DNA of 64,000 nt from Nitrospirota bacterium (GTDB lineage: Bacteria > Nitrospirota_A > Leptospirillia > Leptospirillales > Leptospirillaceae). Below the pieces are notes generated by a model. The model worked only from the letters and a program-made list of their open reading frames with translations, searched no databases and was not told where the DNA came from. Within the stretch, counting starts at the first letter, position 1; the number at the start of each line of letters is the position of its first letter. This document shows, piece after piece, positions 1,777-29,930 of this stretch. The position numbers were made by a program, and so were the translations under genes. Location: contig JAKAAM010000001.1 in NCBI GenBank assembly GCA_021802325.1, positions 10,675-74,674 on the forward strand. Direction: 5' to 3'.

Positions 1777-2583
1777 CTAGAGGGTTCTGACATCGGACCA
1801 GCGGTCGATCCCCTCGGGACAGGCCTCGCGGTCGATCCAGAACTCGGAGGGATGCATTCTCATCCCCGATTCACGCAGAACCCATTGGGTGGGGAGATCT
1901 CCTTCCGGGTCGAGGACCCTGGCAAGGATGTCGCGCTTTTCCCGGCCTGTCACAAGAAAGATTCTTGTCCCGGCTTCCGCCAGAGTGTGGTAGGACATCG
2001 TGATGCGGGGAATCCGCCCAGGTGTTTCGGGGACGGCAAGGATCAGGCGATGGCGATCGTCTTCCGGAGAGGTCCCCGGAAAGAGGCTGGCCGTGTGTCC
2101 ATCGGGCCCCACGCCGAGGAGGGCGATATCGAGAGCCGGCGGGTGGGGAAGGGGGTTGCCCAGAGCCTCCGCGAGAAGCTTTTCGTATCTCAGCGCTTCC
2201 CGGTCATGGTGGGGGGCCTCCCCATGAATCCTGAAGACGGTATTTCCGGGGATTGATCCAGGGGAGAAAAAGTTTTCCTGGGCCATTCTGAAGTTGCTCT
2301 GATCACTCTCCGGAGGAACGCATCGTTCGTCGGAGAAAAACCAGTGGATTCTGGACTTCGTCTCGTCGGGCCAGGAGGCTATTTTTCTGGCCGATGCCCT
2401 CAAAAACGGGATCGGGGTGCTGCCGCCAGAAAGACCGATCGACGCGATGCGTTTCTTTTCAAGGAGGACCAAGATCCTTTGCAGAAAAGTGTCCGATCCC
2501 TTCTCTGCCCAGTCGGAGAGGGAGGGGTAAACGCAAACGACAACGGGTGGGGGGCCCTCTTCAAGATCTGTAAGGCGGGTCAT
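1777..2583 (-). CDS. pgl: 6-phosphogluconolactonase
   Basis: This enzyme hydrolyses 6-phosphoglucono-1,5-lactone to 6-phosphogluconate in the oxidative pentose-phosphate pathway. The 268-residue sequence has the DevB/SOL signatures: 'G-L-S-G-G-S-T-P' near residue 51, 'F-F-S-D-E-R-C-V-P-P-x-x-x-x-S-N' in the middle, and 'L-L-G-V-G-P-D-G-H-T-A-S-L-F-P' near residue 160. These are the phosphate- and substrate-binding loops of the family. Length is normal. Its ATG overlaps the stop of glk by four bases, so the two are translationally coupled and probably make NADPH precursors from glucose phosphate. The enzyme is cytoplasmic. Confidence 0.93.
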   Translation of the reverse strand: MTRLTDLEEGPPPVVVCVYPSLSDWAEKGSDTFLQRILVLLEKKRIASIGLSGGSTPIPFLRASARKIASWPDETKSRIHWFFSDERCVPPESDQSNFRMAQENFFSPGSIPGNTVFRIHGEAPHHDREALRYEKLLAEALGNPLPHPPALDIALLGVGPDGHTASLFPGTSPEDDRHRLILAVPETPGRIPRITMSYHTLAEAGTRIFLVTGREKRDILARVLDPEGDLPTQWVLRESGMRMHPSEFWIDREACPEGIDRWSDVRTL

Positions 2584-3677
2584 CTTGCAACTCCTAGGTT
2601 TTGGGCTTCAGGAACTCGTTGACTGGCAAGCTTCCAAGCTCCCCTGAGACCTGTTTCAGGATTGTCGACAATGTGGACGGGCATTTCGGAGAGAATCTTC
2701 TGGTATCGTCCCTTGTTCGTGAAGTGATCCATGAATGAGGATCGCATGAGGAAAGGGTGAATCTTGCCCGGAATTCCGCCGGCCAGATAGACGCCCCCGG
2801 TTGCGAGCGACTTGAGGGCAAAGTTTCCGGCTTCCTGTCCCAGGAATCGGCAAAAATTTTCAAGAATCATGGTGCAGAGAGGGTCATGTCTCGAGAGCGC
2901 GGCGTGGGTGAGTGCGGCAGGAATCTCATCCTCCGGAAGGGTGGGGTCCAGCGGAAGGCCCGCTGGGGACTGTCCCTGAGTGTGAAAATGGTAGAGATTG
3001 GCGATTCCTTGGCCGGAGACCACCCGCTCGACGCTGGCATGGCCGAAGCGGGACCATAGATAGGTGAGAAGGGGGATATCGGCGGGAGATTCGGGAGCCC
3101 AGTCCGAATGTCCTCCCTCCGTCGGTATGACGATTGGTCCCTGTGCGCCTGGGACAAGGATCGACTCCCCGAGACCTGTCCCGGGAGCGACGACAACCCG
3201 GCTTCCCAGGGGATCCGGATGTCCCTCGTTGATGACAAGGGTCTCTTTTGGGGCAAGACATGTTGTTCCCCAACCCATGGCCACAAGATCGTTGACCAGC
3301 AAGACATCCCTGACGGACAATCCGAGAAGGACCCCCAGTGATTCCGTTTCGACGATCCATGGAAGATTGGTCGTCTGGCAGCGGCCATTGACCACCGGAC
3401 CGGCGATACCAAAGGCTGCCCCCGCGATCGAGAAGCTTTTGGAATAGCCGGTCCGGGCCTCCTCGAGAAAGGATTCAAGGACCCTTTCGAGGGAGGCGAA
3501 GTTGCGGGAAGGGTATTCTTTTTTGAAAACGGATAGGGGGACCTGATCCTGCTCCCCTTTTTTCGGGGTCGCCGGAAATAGGCCGAGAAGGGTTTTTGTT
3601 CCGCCGATATCACCGGCCAGGATCAAAGGGTGAAGAACCGTGCTGATCTGGGAATTGACGGGGGAAGGGTTTTCCAC
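2580..3677 (-). CDS. glk: Glucokinase (Glk family)
   Basis: ATP-dependent phosphorylation of glucose to glucose-6-phosphate is the expected reaction. The 365-residue protein starts with the phosphate-binding loop 'L-A-G-D-I-G-G-T-K-T' at about residue 20. It has the sugar-binding 'L-V-N-D-L-V-A' and 'V-A-P-G-T-G-L-G' motifs and a 'P-T-E-G-G-H' segment, all typical of the bacterial Glk family rather than ROK kinases. The GTG at 3677 is chosen because AAGGTGGT lies just upstream. The frame stays open for 86 more codons upstream, but without a good ribosome-binding site. It is the first gene of a glk-pgl pair, read divergently from hpnH. Confidence 0.9.
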   Translation of the reverse strand: MENPSPVNSQISTVLHPLILAGDIGGTKTLLGLFPATPKKGEQDQVPLSVFKKEYPSRNFASLERVLESFLEEARTGYSKSFSIAGAAFGIAGPVVNGRCQTTNLPWIVETESLGVLLGLSVRDVLLVNDLVAMGWGTTCLAPKETLVINEGHPDPLGSRVVVAPGTGLGESILVPGAQGPIVIPTEGGHSDWAPESPADIPLLTYLWSRFGHASVERVVSGQGIANLYHFHTQGQSPAGLPLDPTLPEDEIPAALTHAALSRHDPLCTMILENFCRFLGQEAGNFALKSLATGGVYLAGGIPGKIHPFLMRSSFMDHFTNKGRYQKILSEMPVHIVDNPETGLRGAWKLASQRVPEAQNLGVAR

Positions 3678-24412: not shown

Positions 24413-26032
24413 TCAGAGAGGATTGCTTTCTGTTTCGGTCCGGAAGGAAGACGTCAGGGCCGAAAGGGACCGGACAATTTCCCTGAGGCACTCGACAGCC
24501 GGTACGGCAGACGAAATATCTTTTCCCCTGGCTTCCATGATCCCCGAAAGAGCATTCACGGCTTCCAGTATCCGCTCGGAGGACTTCTTCTGCCCCTCCG
24601 TTTCTCCCACGATGATATCGACGTTGTGCCCAGTGGTCCGGACCATTCCGGCCAGGGTATCGAGGACCTTTTCGGCCTGGCCCGCCTTGGCTCCGCAATC
24701 CGCCAGCGCGGAGGCTTCCTTGCGGATGTCCGAGACTGTTTCGGCGATGGACGTCTGAATATCCGCGAGGGCGGCGCTGATTTCCTCGGTGGCTTTTGAA
24801 GTCGTTTGGGCAAGCTTCCGGACCTCCTCCGCCACGACGGCAAATCCCCGCCCCTGCTCCCCGGCCCGGGCCGCTTCGATCGCGGCATTCAGTGCGAGGA
24901 GGTTTGTCTGGGTCGCGATAGCCGTGATGGAGCCGGCGATGGTGCCAACATTCTGGCTTGCCTCTTCGAGACCGGCAATACGATTTGCAAGGCTGGTTAT
25001 TTCCTCGGAGGATGTACGGACGGACTCGAGGACGCTTCGAACCGTCTTCGATCCATGCTCTGTTTCACCGACGGCCTGCTTCGAGGCTTTTCCCATTTCG
25101 AGCGCCAGCTCGTTCTCCCGTCGGGCTTCCTCTGCCAAAACCTGGGCCTTTCCCCGGACATCGGCCAGAGTATTGACGGCCTCGCGAAATCCCTCGGAGA
25201 CCGCCGAAAGAACCCGGGAGAGCTGGTCGGTCTCTTGGGAAATTGTCTGGGCTTGCCTGTTCAGATCACCGGTCACCCCGGAAAGCTCCTCAATCAGGCG
25301 GTCAATGCCCCGGCCCACCAAGCCAGCCTCGTCCGGTCCGTCAATCTTCGAAAGTCTGGTCAGGTCACGATTCGATGCGAGAAGGACGGTTTCGGCGGCC
25401 GTCCCCAGCCGCCGGGCCATCTTCGACAGGGCCTTGAAATCCCAAAAGAGCACGATCGCCCACGCCATGAGCGTCACGATCTGGACCCATGTCTGGATCG
25501 TTCGCATTCGGAGGATGTTTTTCTCGATCTTCTGGATCTGCCGGGTCATGTGGGCAAACAGGAGGCGGGTTTCGATGACGTAATGGGAAAAGGCCGGATG
25601 CGCTATTTTTGTCCACAGCCTCGGTCCAAGGTTTTCATGGTGGTTTTTGACCAGGTTTACGATCTGAAGCGATGTGGAATGCGCTTCGTTCCGGTCCCGT
25701 ACAAGATCCTTCAGGGGTGCCAAAGTTCCCCAGGCTTTTTTTGCATCAATCTTTAGACGAACCATCTGGACGTGGGAGAGGGCCTTCATCTGGATGACAA
25801 TGGCCTGGTCCGCGCTGAAGTTGGCACTGGTATTTTCCACGAGTTTGCTCATGGATCGCTCCATGCGGGACTCGGAGGCCATCATGAGGGCGAGGTCCAT
25901 TGCCACGGATTGGAGAGAGGCTTCGGACTCGATCCCGCGTGTGAGCTGGTACTGCAGCCAGCTTCCCGTTCCAATGTTGAGGATGAGCATCATGACGACC
26001 ACAATACCCGTTTTTCTGATGAGTTTTTTCAT
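24413..26032 (-). CDS. Methyl-accepting chemotaxis protein
   Basis: This transmembrane chemoreceptor signals to CheA/CheW. The 539-residue protein has a first membrane helix (about 9-28), a ~155-residue all-helical periplasmic region of the four-helix-bundle type (no PAS/Cache motif), a second helix (about 185-203), a weak HAMP-like linker, and a long cytoplasmic coiled coil. The hairpin tip '[20 protein letters not shown]' is nearly invariant in the family. No CheB/R-binding pentapeptide is visible at the C-terminus. The ligand is unknown. It stands alone; no che or flagellar genes are in this window. Confidence 0.9.
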
Positions 26033-26439: not shown

Positions 26440-27825
26440 CTACGCAGTCACCTTTTCCGGTACGGCAAGAGGCTCGGAAGATCGGGAGGTTGCCACCCGA
26501 TAGATGTTGTAGAGGAAGATCCATTGTCCGGCGATGATCATGAAGCCGCCCCAGGCCCGGGCCACCATGTAGGGGTGGGCGGCCTGGACGGACGCCACGT
26601 AGGGGATCTCGTAGACCTTGGCCGCCGCCTGGATGAGGCCGGCCGCCGTGAGCGAGGTCCAGAAGATGATGAACCCGATGGTCATGAGCCAGTAGTGATA
26701 GAGCTCGAGGGTCGGGTTGAATTTCCGCTTCAGGAGCCGTTCCAGGCCGTAGTACATGGCGCCGATCTCGATGAAAGAGGAAAAACCGAGTAGGGCCAGA
26801 TGGGCGTGGGCCACGATCCAGTGGGTTCCGTGGACGTACCAGTTGATCGCCCGGGTTTGCTGGAATCCCCCCTGGAAGAGCAAGGGGATGCCCATCAGGG
26901 TTCCGGTGATCGCCCAGCGAAGGGCCGGCACTTCGACGAAGAGTTTCCACTTGCCCTGCATGGTGAGGAGGGCGTTGGCGATGAAGGCCATTCCGGGAAC
27001 CAGGATCAGCACGCCGGAGACCGAGGCGAAAGACTTGAGCCACTCGGGAACGGGAGCTCCCATCATGTGGTGCGCGCCGGGGGTGGAGTAGAAGGCGAAG
27101 AGCCCCCAGAAGGTCAGATGGGCCAGCTTGTGGCTGTAAAGGGGATTGCCCGTAAGTTTTGGAATGATATACATGGCAATGGACATGGAAACCGGCGTCA
27201 CCCAGATCCCGAGCTGGTTGTGGGCGTTCCACCACGTCACGAGGGCCTCGTTGAGGCCTGTGATGTGGAAGACCTCGACGCACTGGCTCAGGGAATAGAC
27301 GGTCGCGAGATAAAGCAGCGAGGCCATCATGATCCAGGTGGTGGGATAGATGCCTTTCACTCTCCGGTTGAGGACCGTCATCCAGACATTGACGGCCAGG
27401 GGGACGAGGACAAAGAGGATCACATAGACGTCCACCGGCCAGATGAAATCGGAATATTCGCGGCCGGAGGTCATTCCCAGATCAATGGAGATATCGGCGA
27501 CAGTAATGCCGAGGTTCCAGAGCCAGATGTTCATGACCCCGAGCCGTTCGCTCCAGAGCTTCGTTCCGCAGAGAACGGGGGTCATGTAGTACATGGCGGC
27601 CCCGAAGGCCATGGAAATCCACGCATAGATCACGGTCATCACATGGACGGGCCGGATGTGCCCGAAATTAAGATACGGGGTCCCGTTCAACACGTCCGGA
27701 TACGCCAGCTTGAGCGATGTGACGAATCCGAGCGTGGTTCCCATCGCGAGCCAGAACACCGACGAGATGATGGCCGTTTTTGCCGCGGTTCCGCTTGGAA
27801 TCTCTTTCCCTTTCCCTGGTGCCAT
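26440..27825 (-). CDS. cbb3-like haem-copper oxidase subunit I
   Basis: The 461-residue polytopic protein resembles CcoN. Low-spin haem ligand His61 lies in 'G-H-I-R-P-V-H'. CuB ligands are His202 ('W-W-N-A-H-N') and His252/His253 ('G-A-H-H'), with Tyr246 at the position of the cbb3 cross-linked tyrosine. Haem ligands His340 and His342 lie in 'H-W-I-V-A-H-A-H'. The Tyr argues for an oxygen reductase, not a nitric-oxide reductase. I chose ATG 27825 with GGGAGGA 5 bases upstream; the frame is open for 50 more codons without a site. No ccoO, ccoP or ccoQ lies nearby. A sigma-54 promoter precedes it. Confidence 0.88.
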   Translation of the reverse strand: MAPGKGKEIPSGTAAKTAIISSVFWLAMGTTLGFVTSLKLAYPDVLNGTPYLNFGHIRPVHVMTVIYAWISMAFGAAMYYMTPVLCGTKLWSERLGVMNIWLWNLGITVADISIDLGMTSGREYSDFIWPVDVYVILFVLVPLAVNVWMTVLNRRVKGIYPTTWIMMASLLYLATVYSLSQCVEVFHITGLNEALVTWWNAHNQLGIWVTPVSMSIAMYIIPKLTGNPLYSHKLAHLTFWGLFAFYSTPGAHHMMGAPVPEWLKSFASVSGVLILVPGMAFIANALLTMQGKWKLFVEVPALRWAITGTLMGIPLLFQGGFQQTRAINWYVHGTHWIVAHAHLALLGFSSFIEIGAMYYGLERLLKRKFNPTLELYHYWLMTIGFIIFWTSLTAAGLIQAAAKVYEIPYVASVQAAHPYMVARAWGGFMIIAGQWIFLYNIYRVATSRSSEPLAVPEKVTA

Positions 27826-27956
27826 CACATTCCTCCCTTTACCAAGCAGTTTTCCTTTCTGGTGCATTTCAATTGTCGTTAGCCGAACCTCTTCCCGGCA
27901 TCCGCTTCCCAATCCCAATGCCAGAGTTTGGCCAGGCCTCCGCGCCTTCACATATC

Positions 27957-27971
27957 GCAATCCGTGTGCCA
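27957..27971 (-). promoter_or_regulatory. Sigma-54 (-24/-12) promoter of the oxidase gene
   Basis: On the minus strand the sequence is TGGCAC-ACGGA-TTGC, with the GG and GC doublets exactly 10 bases apart, as in the RpoN consensus. Transcription would start near 27945 and give a leader of about 120 bases before the oxidase ATG at 27825. The divergent neighbouring gene is a sigma-54 activator. The match is as good as textbook nif/dct promoters; function is inferred. Confidence 0.8.
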
Positions 27972-28057
27972 TCATCTTTTCATTGGTGTTTATCTTTAAA
28001 TTTCAATGTTTTGTATGCCACGAGCGATGAGATTGGCCTCCTTATGATGCGTTGGGG

Positions 28058-28098
28058 TTCCCAATAAATTGGAAACGGGTTGTTTCGGGACGACAACC
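28058..28098. promoter_or_regulatory. Candidate activator-binding dyads upstream of the sigma-54 promoter
   Basis: Two dyads lie 100-140 bases upstream of the -24/-12 element: CCAAT-AA-ATTGG (28061-28072, flanked by TTC and AA) and GGTTGT-N9-ACAACC (28078-28083 with 28093-28098). This is the distance at which enhancer-type sites for sigma-54 activators usually lie. The rest of the 27972-28517 divergent region shows no gene I can support. Confidence 0.4.
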
Positions 28099-28517
28099 GG
28101 AGGCTGGCCCCCTTCATTCCGTCCCATTGAGGCTCCCAGTCGGAAGATGTCCTCGAATGGGGGCGATCCTGGAATCGGACGCAGGCCGACCTCCTGTTTC
28201 CTGACGATGCGGAAGGGTGTTGATTCTCCGGAACGAGCGGGAACACGTTTCCGGAACTGGGTGTTGAAAGTAAAGAGGAAGATTGTGTGTTCCTGAAGGG
28301 ATTAAGAGGAAAAGGGGAGAGGATTGGATTTTATCCTTGGGATTTGGTAGGTATATGGACGAACAGGACTTCGGAGGGATTTCTCCGGCAAGATGAGCCG
28401 CTTCCCCCTGCGTTCGCCGCCGAACCTCGTTCGGGGCGGATGCCGGCTCCTCACTCACCTTGGTCTTGAGGGTTTTGATTTGCCTTGCTATTTGCGGGCC
28501 TCACAAAGGGGAGAACA

Positions 28518-29930
28518 TTGCCTTTACAGCGGAATTCCCAGAACAACCTCTACCGTATCTTGTCCCACCGCATTGCCGAACAGACCAATTCGTCCTTTCT
28601 GCTGATCGGAAACGACTATCGAATCCAGTGGATTTCGCGCCCCGTCAGGAAGTCTCTGTTTGAGGGTGAAGGAACTGTCGTGGGAAAGCTCTGTGCCCAT
28701 GTCCTCAAAGACCGGGTGTGTTCGGCCCGTTGCCTCAATGCCGGGGAGATGATTTCTCCCGCAGAAAATGGAAGTCCCTTCGGATCACTCTGCCTTGAGG
28801 AACGACTGGATTCCTGCCAGGTCCGGAATACCATTCTGCGTGATTCGAAAGGAACCACTGTCGGACTTCTCAAGATGGTCGTTCCCCGGGAAACCGGAAT
28901 TCTTGAAGAATCCGCCGATAACGATACGGATCTTGAGGCCAGTCTTTTCGAGGCGGGCGGGGCATGCGAGACCTCCTTTCCCTCCACCCTTTCGCGGATT
29001 GCCCGGACCACGATTCCCGTTCTGCTTGTCGGAGAGACTGGGACAGGGAAAGAGGTTCTGGCACACAGGATCCACCACTTGAGTCCACGAAAGGATCGGC
29101 CCTTCGTTGTTCTGGATCTTTCTGTTGTTCCAGAAACCCTCGTCGACGACTCCCTTTTTGGTCATGCCCGTGGATCTTTCACAGGGGCAACCGCCGACTA
29201 TACCGGAAAGCTCCTTCAGGCCGACAAGGGGACCCTTTTCCTCGACGAACTCGAGAACATCCCCCTCCCGGTCCAGGCAAAGCTTCTTCGGTTTCTCGAG
29301 ACGGGAATCATCGAGCATATCGGCAAAAATCAGAGAACGTTGGTCGATGTCCGAATCCTGGCCGCCACCAATGTGGACCCGGTCAGGCTTCTCAAGGAAG
29401 GACGGCTTCGGGAGGATCTTTATTACAGACTTCGTGGAATGACTGTGGACATTCCGCCCCTCAGGGCCAGAAAAGAGGAGATCCCCCTTTTGATAAGGTC
29501 CTTTAGAATGGCATGGGGAGAGAAGTATGGCGGACCGGTTCCCGAATTCGAGGATTCGGCCATCGACCGTTTCGCAAGCTATCCTTATCCGGGTAACATT
29601 CGCGAACTCAAGCATCTCGTTGATCTCTGCCTGGCCCTTTCTTCGGACCCGACAATCACGGAATCCAATCTCCCGGAACCTGTCCTGAAAATTCTTTCTC
29701 AGAGTTCTTCTATTCCGGACGAAGGTGAAAAAACCGCTTTGCCGGAACCGGAGTTCGAACCCATGAGGGCGACCCTCTCCTCAGTCGAGAGGAAGATGAT
29801 CCAAAAAGCCCTTGCCGACAATCAGGGCCGCATTACCGAGACTGCAAAGACCCTCTCGATGAGCCGGATCACGTTATGGCGGAAAATGCAAAAGTATGGT
29901 CTGGACAAGCGGCATCCCTTTGCGCAATGA
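28518..29930 (+). CDS. Sigma-54-dependent transcriptional activator with Cys-rich PAS-like domain
   Basis: The 470-residue regulator has an N-terminal PAS-like sensor (about 5-125) with five Cys (59, 68, 72, 92, 100), including a C-x8-C-x3-C pattern. A central AAA+ domain follows with Walker A 'G-E-T-G-T-G-K-E', 'G-S-F-T-G-A' (the sigma-54 contact loop, Ser variant) and Walker B-like 'F-L-D-E-L'. It ends with a Fis-type helix-turn-helix. There is no receiver domain, so the signal probably enters through the PAS part, perhaps redox via Cys. TTG 28518 is preferred because AAAGGGGAG precedes it. Divergence from the oxidase with its sigma-54 promoter suggests that is the target. Confidence 0.9.
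   Translation: MPLQRNSQNNLYRILSHRIAEQTNSSFLLIGNDYRIQWISRPVRKSLFEGEGTVVGKLCAHVLKDRVCSARCLNAGEMISPAENGSPFGSLCLEERLDSCQVRNTILRDSKGTTVGLLKMVVPRETGILEESADNDTDLEASLFEAGGACETSFPSTLSRIARTTIPVLLVGETGTGKEVLAHRIHHLSPRKDRPFVVLDLSVVPETLVDDSLFGHARGSFTGATADYTGKLLQADKGTLFLDELENIPLPVQAKLLRFLETGIIEHIGKNQRTLVDVRILAATNVDPVRLLKEGRLREDLYYRLRGMTVDIPPLRARKEEIPLLIRSFRMAWGEKYGGPVPEFEDSAIDRFASYPYPGNIRELKHLVDLCLALSSDPTITESNLPEPVLKILSQSSSIPDEGEKTALPEPEFEPMRATLSSVERKMIQKALADNQGRITETAKTLSMSRITLWRKMQKYGLDKRHPFAQ

Follow-up and report, generated by a model that had tools for sequence, protein, structure and literature searches.

The 64,000-nt stretch of DNA analyzed here (the window; Nitrospirota bacterium, Leptospirillaceae, assembly GCA_021802325.1, contig JAKAAM010000001.1, positions 10,675 to 74,674 of the forward strand) carries a gene for a CcoN-like haem-copper oxidase subunit I and, divergent from it, a gene for a sigma-54 activator. 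This locus very probably forms a one-component respiratory switch, in which a promoter for RpoN (sigma-54) before a duplicated CcoN-like isoform would be controlled by the divergent activator, a protein with a cysteine-bearing, probably PAS-type sensor (PAS-Cys), acting at a palindrome between the two genes. The window was compared with 21 genomes (G001-G021), i.e. 14 of the genus and seven others of the family. G001 is the nearest, with 91% of 31-letter words in common and identity over those parts of the locus that are present; the distinct orthologous loci number three, namely the window (= G001), G002 and G010, the same three of the 14 genus genomes that hold an orthologue of the activator (84-100% identity). 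Among named genomes, those with relatives of the oxidase gene are Nitrospirae metagenome-assembled genomes (MAGs), and the activator has one relative under the name Leptospirillia.

Promoter and palindrome between the two genes

A pattern scan returned TGGCACACGGATTGC (TGGCAC-ACGGA-TTGC, with its GG and GC at the canonical distance of 12 bases) as the sole 0-mismatch -24/-12 match in the window, confirming an earlier note that had pointed out this minus-strand element and its perfect GG/GC spacing from the letters alone. The note had also placed it upstream of the oxidase gene, which holds, except that the longest-frame start at 27975 gives way to a most likely ATG at 27825, behind GGGAGG, 146 bases from the promoter. 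The promoter therefore lies outside the gene and is followed by a leader of ~120 nt from the predicted transcription start at 27945. RpoN is encoded in G001 and in 18 of 21 genomes searched for it (10 of 13 genus genomes), with no match in G003, G009 and G010.

The bare -24/-12 pattern is weak evidence genome-wide, with exact matches numbering 7, 5 and 10 in G001, G002 and G010 and those of a reversed control 2, 5 and 3. Three of these 22 matches precede ccoN, two cydA and three nifH, and others fall within genes, three of these being antisense to a flagellin (cydA was named by Pfam, nifH and flagellin by eye). Within the window, too, the pattern at up to two mismatches is no more frequent than in shuffles (43 observed, 38.6 in shuffles). 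It is the position and the conservation of TGGCACACGGATTGC that lift it above chance: all ten consensus bases are retained in the G002 and G010 orthologues, and 13 of the 15 promoter columns are identical across the window, G002 and G010. The -24/-12 bases are thus kept in all three relatives with both genes, two of them (G002 and G010) distinct from the window. Chance was rejected as the origin of the match, given that it is the sole exact one in the window and that, when the 695-bp intergenic region was dinucleotide-shuffled 20,000 times, an exact site arose on the ccoN strand in 8 cases. The same strand of this region yielded no sigma-70-like site.

The second element, which the earlier note did not contain, is the palindrome GGTTGT-N9-ACAACC, centered ~143 bases upstream of the predicted transcription start. 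We propose it as the binding site of the activator, as its position would match the place expected of an enhancer (~80-200 bp upstream). None of 20,000 shuffles of the intergenic region reproduced it. The exact palindrome occurs in three of the 14 genus genomes, as a single copy each and always at the ccoN locus, and these genomes are exactly those with the activator orthologue; its absence from the others is less certain, because the 14 include many incomplete MAGs. Alignment of the window, G001, G002 and G010 indicated two blocks to be strongly conserved, i.e. the -24/-12 element and the palindrome plus flank. Across the three distinct sequences, identical columns make up 19 of 21 in the palindrome (25 of 27 including the flank); the stretch between palindrome and promoter has 47 of 101, the leader 63 of 140 and the part further upstream 17 of 100. 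In G010, the oxidase and activator genes reside on two contigs, the ends of which share a 411-bp overlap at 97.6% identity; the activator is therefore divergent from ccoN there, at a distance of ~1.7 kb. The regulatory link between oxidase and activator, called inference in the earlier note, is strengthened by the palindrome at enhancer distance and by conservation in the three relatives with both genes, and we still infer it.

Features of the locus and of the cydA-side counterpart in G001 (window positions unless a stretch is named)
Feature	Position	Strand	Basis
Sigma-54 -24/-12 promoter TGGCACACGGATTGC	27957..27971	-	Pattern scan, shuffles, conservation
Palindrome GGTTGT-N9-ACAACC, proposed activator-binding site (upstream activator sequence, UAS)	28078..28098		Conservation, 0/20,000 shuffles
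Predicted 5' leader	27826..27945	-	Promoter geometry; start placed 12 bases past the -12 element
Leader hairpin GGCAU(16)AUGCC	27897..27922	-	GACGU(16)ACGUC in G010
CcoN-like haem-copper oxidase subunit I, 461 amino acids (aa), stand-alone	26440..27825	-	PF00115, TIGR00780, solved relatives, motifs
Divergent sigma-54 activator: probable PAS sensor, AAA+, HTH_8	28518..29930	+	Domain searches, fold model
cydA-side promoter and divergent activator-like frame, G001:C10	L155:2025-2039 and 2144-3514		

As for the leader, the hairpin listed above has a GGGA-rich loop, and two of its stem pairs are altered on both sides in G010, among three distinct sequences only.

The oxidase copies and the divergent activator

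The oxidase matches the Pfam family PF00115 (COX1; 261.5 bits), and its closest solved relatives are the cbb3 CcoN chains 3mk7 and 9g6b. Alignment to 3mk7 and a motif search showed the histidine-ligand motifs and Y-x5-HH to be present (motifs starting at residues 58, 200, 245 and 338); the histidines are those that coordinate haem b, haem b3 and CuB in this enzyme type, and the tyrosine is that of Y-x5-HH. The score against the NCBIfam ccoN equivalog model TIGR00780 (246.1 bits) falls below the cut-off of 583.15, and no ccoO or ccoP adjoins the gene, its neighbors being the divergent activator and a gene for a chemoreceptor of the methyl-accepting chemotaxis protein type. We thus use the name CcoN-like for what the earlier note had termed a cbb3-like subunit I. 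Ten of the 14 genus genomes have FixO-like matches above cut-off at other places. Identity as a nitric oxide reductase was rejected, as cbb3 CcoN chains are the best relatives, NorB chains score far lower (E 1e-11) and Y-x5-HH is present, as it is in 120 of 120 homologs among the matches listed. A glutamate-to-glutamine change at what we take to be Glu323 (stutzeri numbering) was dropped as a feature special to this oxidase: FQGG stands in four of the 120 listed homologs, with 104 not scored. The chemoreceptor gene downstream of the oxidase (window 24413-26032, minus strand) has a 539-aa frame in its place in G001 and G002.

Genus genomes hold several CcoN-like copies, some of them interrupted by contig ends. 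We compiled 24 distinct upstream regions of such copies (at least 70% protein identity, with the match beginning within the first 10 residues). Three of them, i.e. those of the window, G002 and G010, carry an exact -24/-12 element, and none of the other 21 has a site with fewer than two mismatches, two being the best (the region L037 spans just 127 bases). Instead, nine of these 21 display a sigma-70-like TTGC(C/G)A-N17-TATACT 106-108 bases before the ATG, one of them in G001 itself (L092), and in the remaining 12 neither type of promoter was found. A sister copy with the sigma-70-like promoter is present in nine of the 14 genus genomes. In a tree of 33 rows, the RpoN-linked copies form one clade (99/98) beside other copies of the genus, and 36 positions distinguish these three from 13 other copies (a 37th is listed, at which the others have no letters). 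The simplest reading of this tree is that the RpoN-linked gene arose by gene duplication followed by promoter exchange.

The divergent gene, with a most likely start at TTG 28518 after AAAGGGGAG (the listed frame begins at 28485), encodes an AAA+ domain with the GAFTGA loop and a Fis-type helix-turn-helix, bearing out the earlier call of a sigma-54 activator. NorR, which is encoded with norAB or norVW, is likewise a divergent sigma-54 activator that switches a respiratory enzyme, with a GAF sensor binding non-haem iron. The window activator differs in its probable PAS fold; it has no GAF match and scores below the cut-off of the NorR model NF003451 (257.4 bits, cut-off 476), the match being confined to residues 155-462. 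No Pfam domain exceeded its cut-off in the sensor part, and a sensor profile searched against Protein Data Bank sequences gave weak matches only (E 0.15 and worse), some of them PAS. Since the full-length activator, when used in a fold search, gave matches over the AAA+ part, the sensor was folded alone, yielding a middling model (predicted local distance difference test score, pLDDT, 68). Its Foldseek neighbors, none at E 1e-3 or better, include haem-binding PAS domains (EcDOS, FixL, Aer2) and the FAD-binding one of NifL. The PAS-like N-terminus put forward in the earlier note is hence probable, on the strength of fold neighbors of a middling model. The five sensor cysteines named there are all present (58, 67, 71, 91 and 99, counting the proline coded at 28521 as 1); Cys 58, 67 and 71, arranged as Cys-x8-Cys-x3-Cys, recur in 25 of 25 aligned homologs and Cys 91 in 22 of 25, but Cys 99 is replaced by phenylalanine or tyrosine in the two nearest orthologs.

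Activator paralogs of 53-59% identity adjoin a tRNA-Ser(cga) gene in eight of eight stretches (L081-L088), and a 1-mismatch -24/-12 element lies just behind a 43% activator homolog in G013 (L089:7870-7884).

A parallel arrangement at cydA

The gene cydA (cytochrome bd) was found in 11 of the 14 genus genomes and five of the seven other family genomes, giving 16 loci; seven more distant genomes of the phylum have weaker cydA matches, and the counts here refer to the 16. Ten of the 16 loci have a divergent frame with the motif CHE-x8-C-x6-CPL. In G001 this frame codes for a sigma-54 activator in which Pfam detects PAS, those of G004 and G008 were also matched by a search with the window activator, and the others are called activators by likeness. 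Nine of the ten possess a -24/-12 element, exact in six (G001, G005, G009, G010, G014 and G016, one of which belongs to another genus), with one mismatch in two and with two mismatches in one (the imperfect sites being those of G004, G006 and G008; a run of N interrupts the upstream region of G006). Among the six loci that lack the motif, G011 has a 2-mismatch site but no activator, and the other five have no such site.

Five of the six exact-promoter loci additionally contain TGTCA-N4-TGACA upstream of cydA, with no exact form in G009. The composite of this palindrome, 85-115 bases and TGGCAC-N5-TTGC occurs once each in five of the 21 genomes, always before cydA and in two genera; its reversed control is found in none of the 21. 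As the two palindromes differ, a common operator for ccoN and cydA was rejected. The activator at cydA in G001 and the window activator share 38% identity over residues 155-456 (AAA+ to helix-turn-helix), and no sensor part aligned between them. The cysteines of the persulfide sensor FisR (C53, C64 and C71) are spaced x10/x6, presumably the same layout as the x10/x6 of the cydA-side activators, whereas that of the window activator is x8/x3 and thus departs from the FisR spacing.

Because PAS-Cys activators and exact -24/-12 elements recur at cydA, RpoN probably controls both oxidase types in these bacteria. More tentatively, and on the doubtful side, one may envisage a general RpoN terminal-oxidase switch in Leptospirillum-type iron oxidisers, with cytochrome bd and the CcoN-like isoform each under its own divergent PAS-Cys activator and palindrome. 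The two cysteine layouts might then report different sulfur or redox signals, oxidases would be exchanged according to chemistry and not oxygen alone, and the ccoN arm would be a paired duplication of oxidase and activator genes.

Mechanism, alternatives and related systems

Waiting of the polymerase in a closed complex and ATP-driven opening are established for the sigma-54 activator class. By the mechanism that we propose, RpoN-RNA polymerase would transcribe the oxidase gene from TGGCACACGGATTGC, held there as a closed complex until an activator oligomer on the palindrome hydrolyses ATP and the promoter opens. The PAS domain would gate this opening via Cys-x8-Cys-x3-Cys, the signal being thiol-reactive, redox-based or a metal; judging from the conserved cysteines, the activator may sense redox state. 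The product would serve as a catalytic-subunit isoform using partner subunits encoded elsewhere. Expression of the oxidase gene is expected only on a specific signal, since a sigma-54 promoter should be silent without its activator.

An alternative that we regard as unlikely retains the sigma-54 promoter and assigns it to another main regulator—NifA, NtrC or the cydA-side activator—with the neighboring gene autoregulated or serving other genes. These genomes do hold other sigma-54 activator-like matches, activator paralogs located away from oxidases and, in the genus, nifH promoters with TGT-N10-ACA sites. TGT-N10-ACA is the NifA consensus, though, and the palindrome has TGT-N9-ACA, a difference in spacing for which NifA was set aside as the driver of the oxidase gene; the palindrome is also unlike the sites at cydA, and in its exact form it is confined to genomes with this activator orthologue. 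Less probable still is a fortuitous -24/-12 match, with ccoN transcribed from an unrecognized sigma-70 or other promoter and the conserved blocks representing another operator. The lack of enrichment of the bare pattern in G002 would fit this, as would the moderate conservation of the intergenic region: the earlier note had sought -24/-12 conservation above background, and all ten bases are indeed kept, but 24 of 418 15-column blocks, among them the palindrome block and leader, equal the promoter in conservation. These 24 sit in or beside the palindrome and promoter blocks and in the leader. The rarity of the exact site in shuffles and its ten consensus bases in three distinct sequences argue against a fortuitous match, as does a ccoN strand devoid of the sigma-70-like site that nine of the 21 paralogous copies show. 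Regarding the sensing step, it is well possible, if short of probable, that the PAS domain detects O2 or redox state directly through a bound cofactor (haem, flavin or an Fe-S cluster), its cysteines being structural or cluster ligands and not the seat of thiol or persulfide chemistry. Haem and FAD PAS domains among the Foldseek neighbors speak for a cofactor; PAS folds are alike at this level of a middling model, however, and the standout invariant residues of the sensor are cysteines.

Several observations weigh against the switch as we read it. Conservation is supported by three distinct loci, G001 having the same sequence as the window here; G002 has as many exact -24/-12 matches as its reversed control; and the 24 equally conserved blocks have been mentioned. 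A single palindrome was found, and activators of this class frequently use at least two sites. G010 has a 240-aa open reading frame in the ~1.7-kb gap between activator and ccoN, and no RpoN was found in this MAG (81% complete). The same cysteine motif occurs in PAS activators at other loci, and the 53-59% paralogs, present in eight of the 14 genus genomes, lie away from oxidases, with neither a -24/-12 element at zero or one mismatch nor an exact palindrome in the 10-16 kb around them (L081-L088); as its nearest paralogs lack both, a general link of this family of activators to oxidases does not hold. At cydA, six of the 16 loci have no site at up to two mismatches (G003, G013, G017, G018, G019 and G020), and in G013 the divergent activator, the frame of which stays open for just 239 aa in the stretch, is present without a correctly spaced -24/-12. 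Finally, an oxygen signal accounts for the response of cydAB to aeration in Leptospirillum ferriphilum as well as the sulfur idea does (PMC6695575).

In L. ferriphilum, cbb3 transcription showed no clear oxygen dependence and cydAB followed aeration and oxygen (PMC6695575); a difference in response between the two oxidases is thus already on record there. The earlier note had called RpoN control of a terminal oxidase unusual, which holds in part: the principle is known, since NmpR (NmpRSTU) of Myxococcus xanthus, a sigma-54 activator with palindromic sites upstream of the sigma-54 promoter, regulates a cbb3 operon (PMC11841059). NmpR, however, acts as the response regulator within a multi-component system, recognizes GCGCA-N5-TGCGC and governs a regulon (PMC11841059), whereas the window activator appears to be a one-component regulator, encoded divergently from just one duplicated gene for a catalytic subunit. 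Another sigma-54 activator is FisR, described in Cupriavidus and Acinetobacter; its gene is transcribed opposite to the target operon in A. baumannii, where sulfide induces cydAB, and the Cupriavidus protein has cysteines in its regulatory domain (PMC7315123). It differs in targeting sulfide-oxidation genes, and the cysteines of the Cupriavidus protein are missing from its A. baumannii counterpart (PMC7315123). The orphan CcoN4 of Pseudomonas aeruginosa is a catalytic subunit encoded apart from the full cco operon and with a role of its own, and the available account of it gives no sigma-54 promoter or paired activator (PMC5697931). In Azoarcus, cco expression is NifA-dependent with no obvious RpoN site (PMC3916325). 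Under NaCl, L. ferriphilum raised ccoN and sqr and lowered two sigma-54 regulators, gene copies being unspecified (PMC9053815). Oxidase terms were looked for in the available text of two sigma-54 regulon papers (PMC12316311, PMC4641369) and none were present, and the literature matches listed, subscription journals being outside their scope, contained no account of ccoN or cydA being under sigma-54 in Leptospirillum. Three features are new as far as the literature searched goes: that the PAS-Cys activator is one-component and dedicated, that it is paired with a duplicate of the catalytic subunit, and that cytochrome bd has a parallel arrangement.

The duplicated subunit, its sister behind a sigma-70-like promoter and the cydA parallel in two genera make the signal for an oxidase change in an acid-mine iron oxidiser a testable matter, and the locus would provide a case of promoter exchange following gene duplication.

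Further genes lie behind exact -24/-12 elements. These include nifH genes, identified by eye, in L146 (G001:C82) and in L151 and L144 (G010); in G010, TGT-N10-ACA sites are located ~93 bases upstream, pointing to nitrogen fixation under RpoN in the genus. A conserved 213-aa protein is likewise encoded behind exact elements in G002 (L142:1501-1515), where the copy has no Pfam match, and in G010 (L147:936-922).
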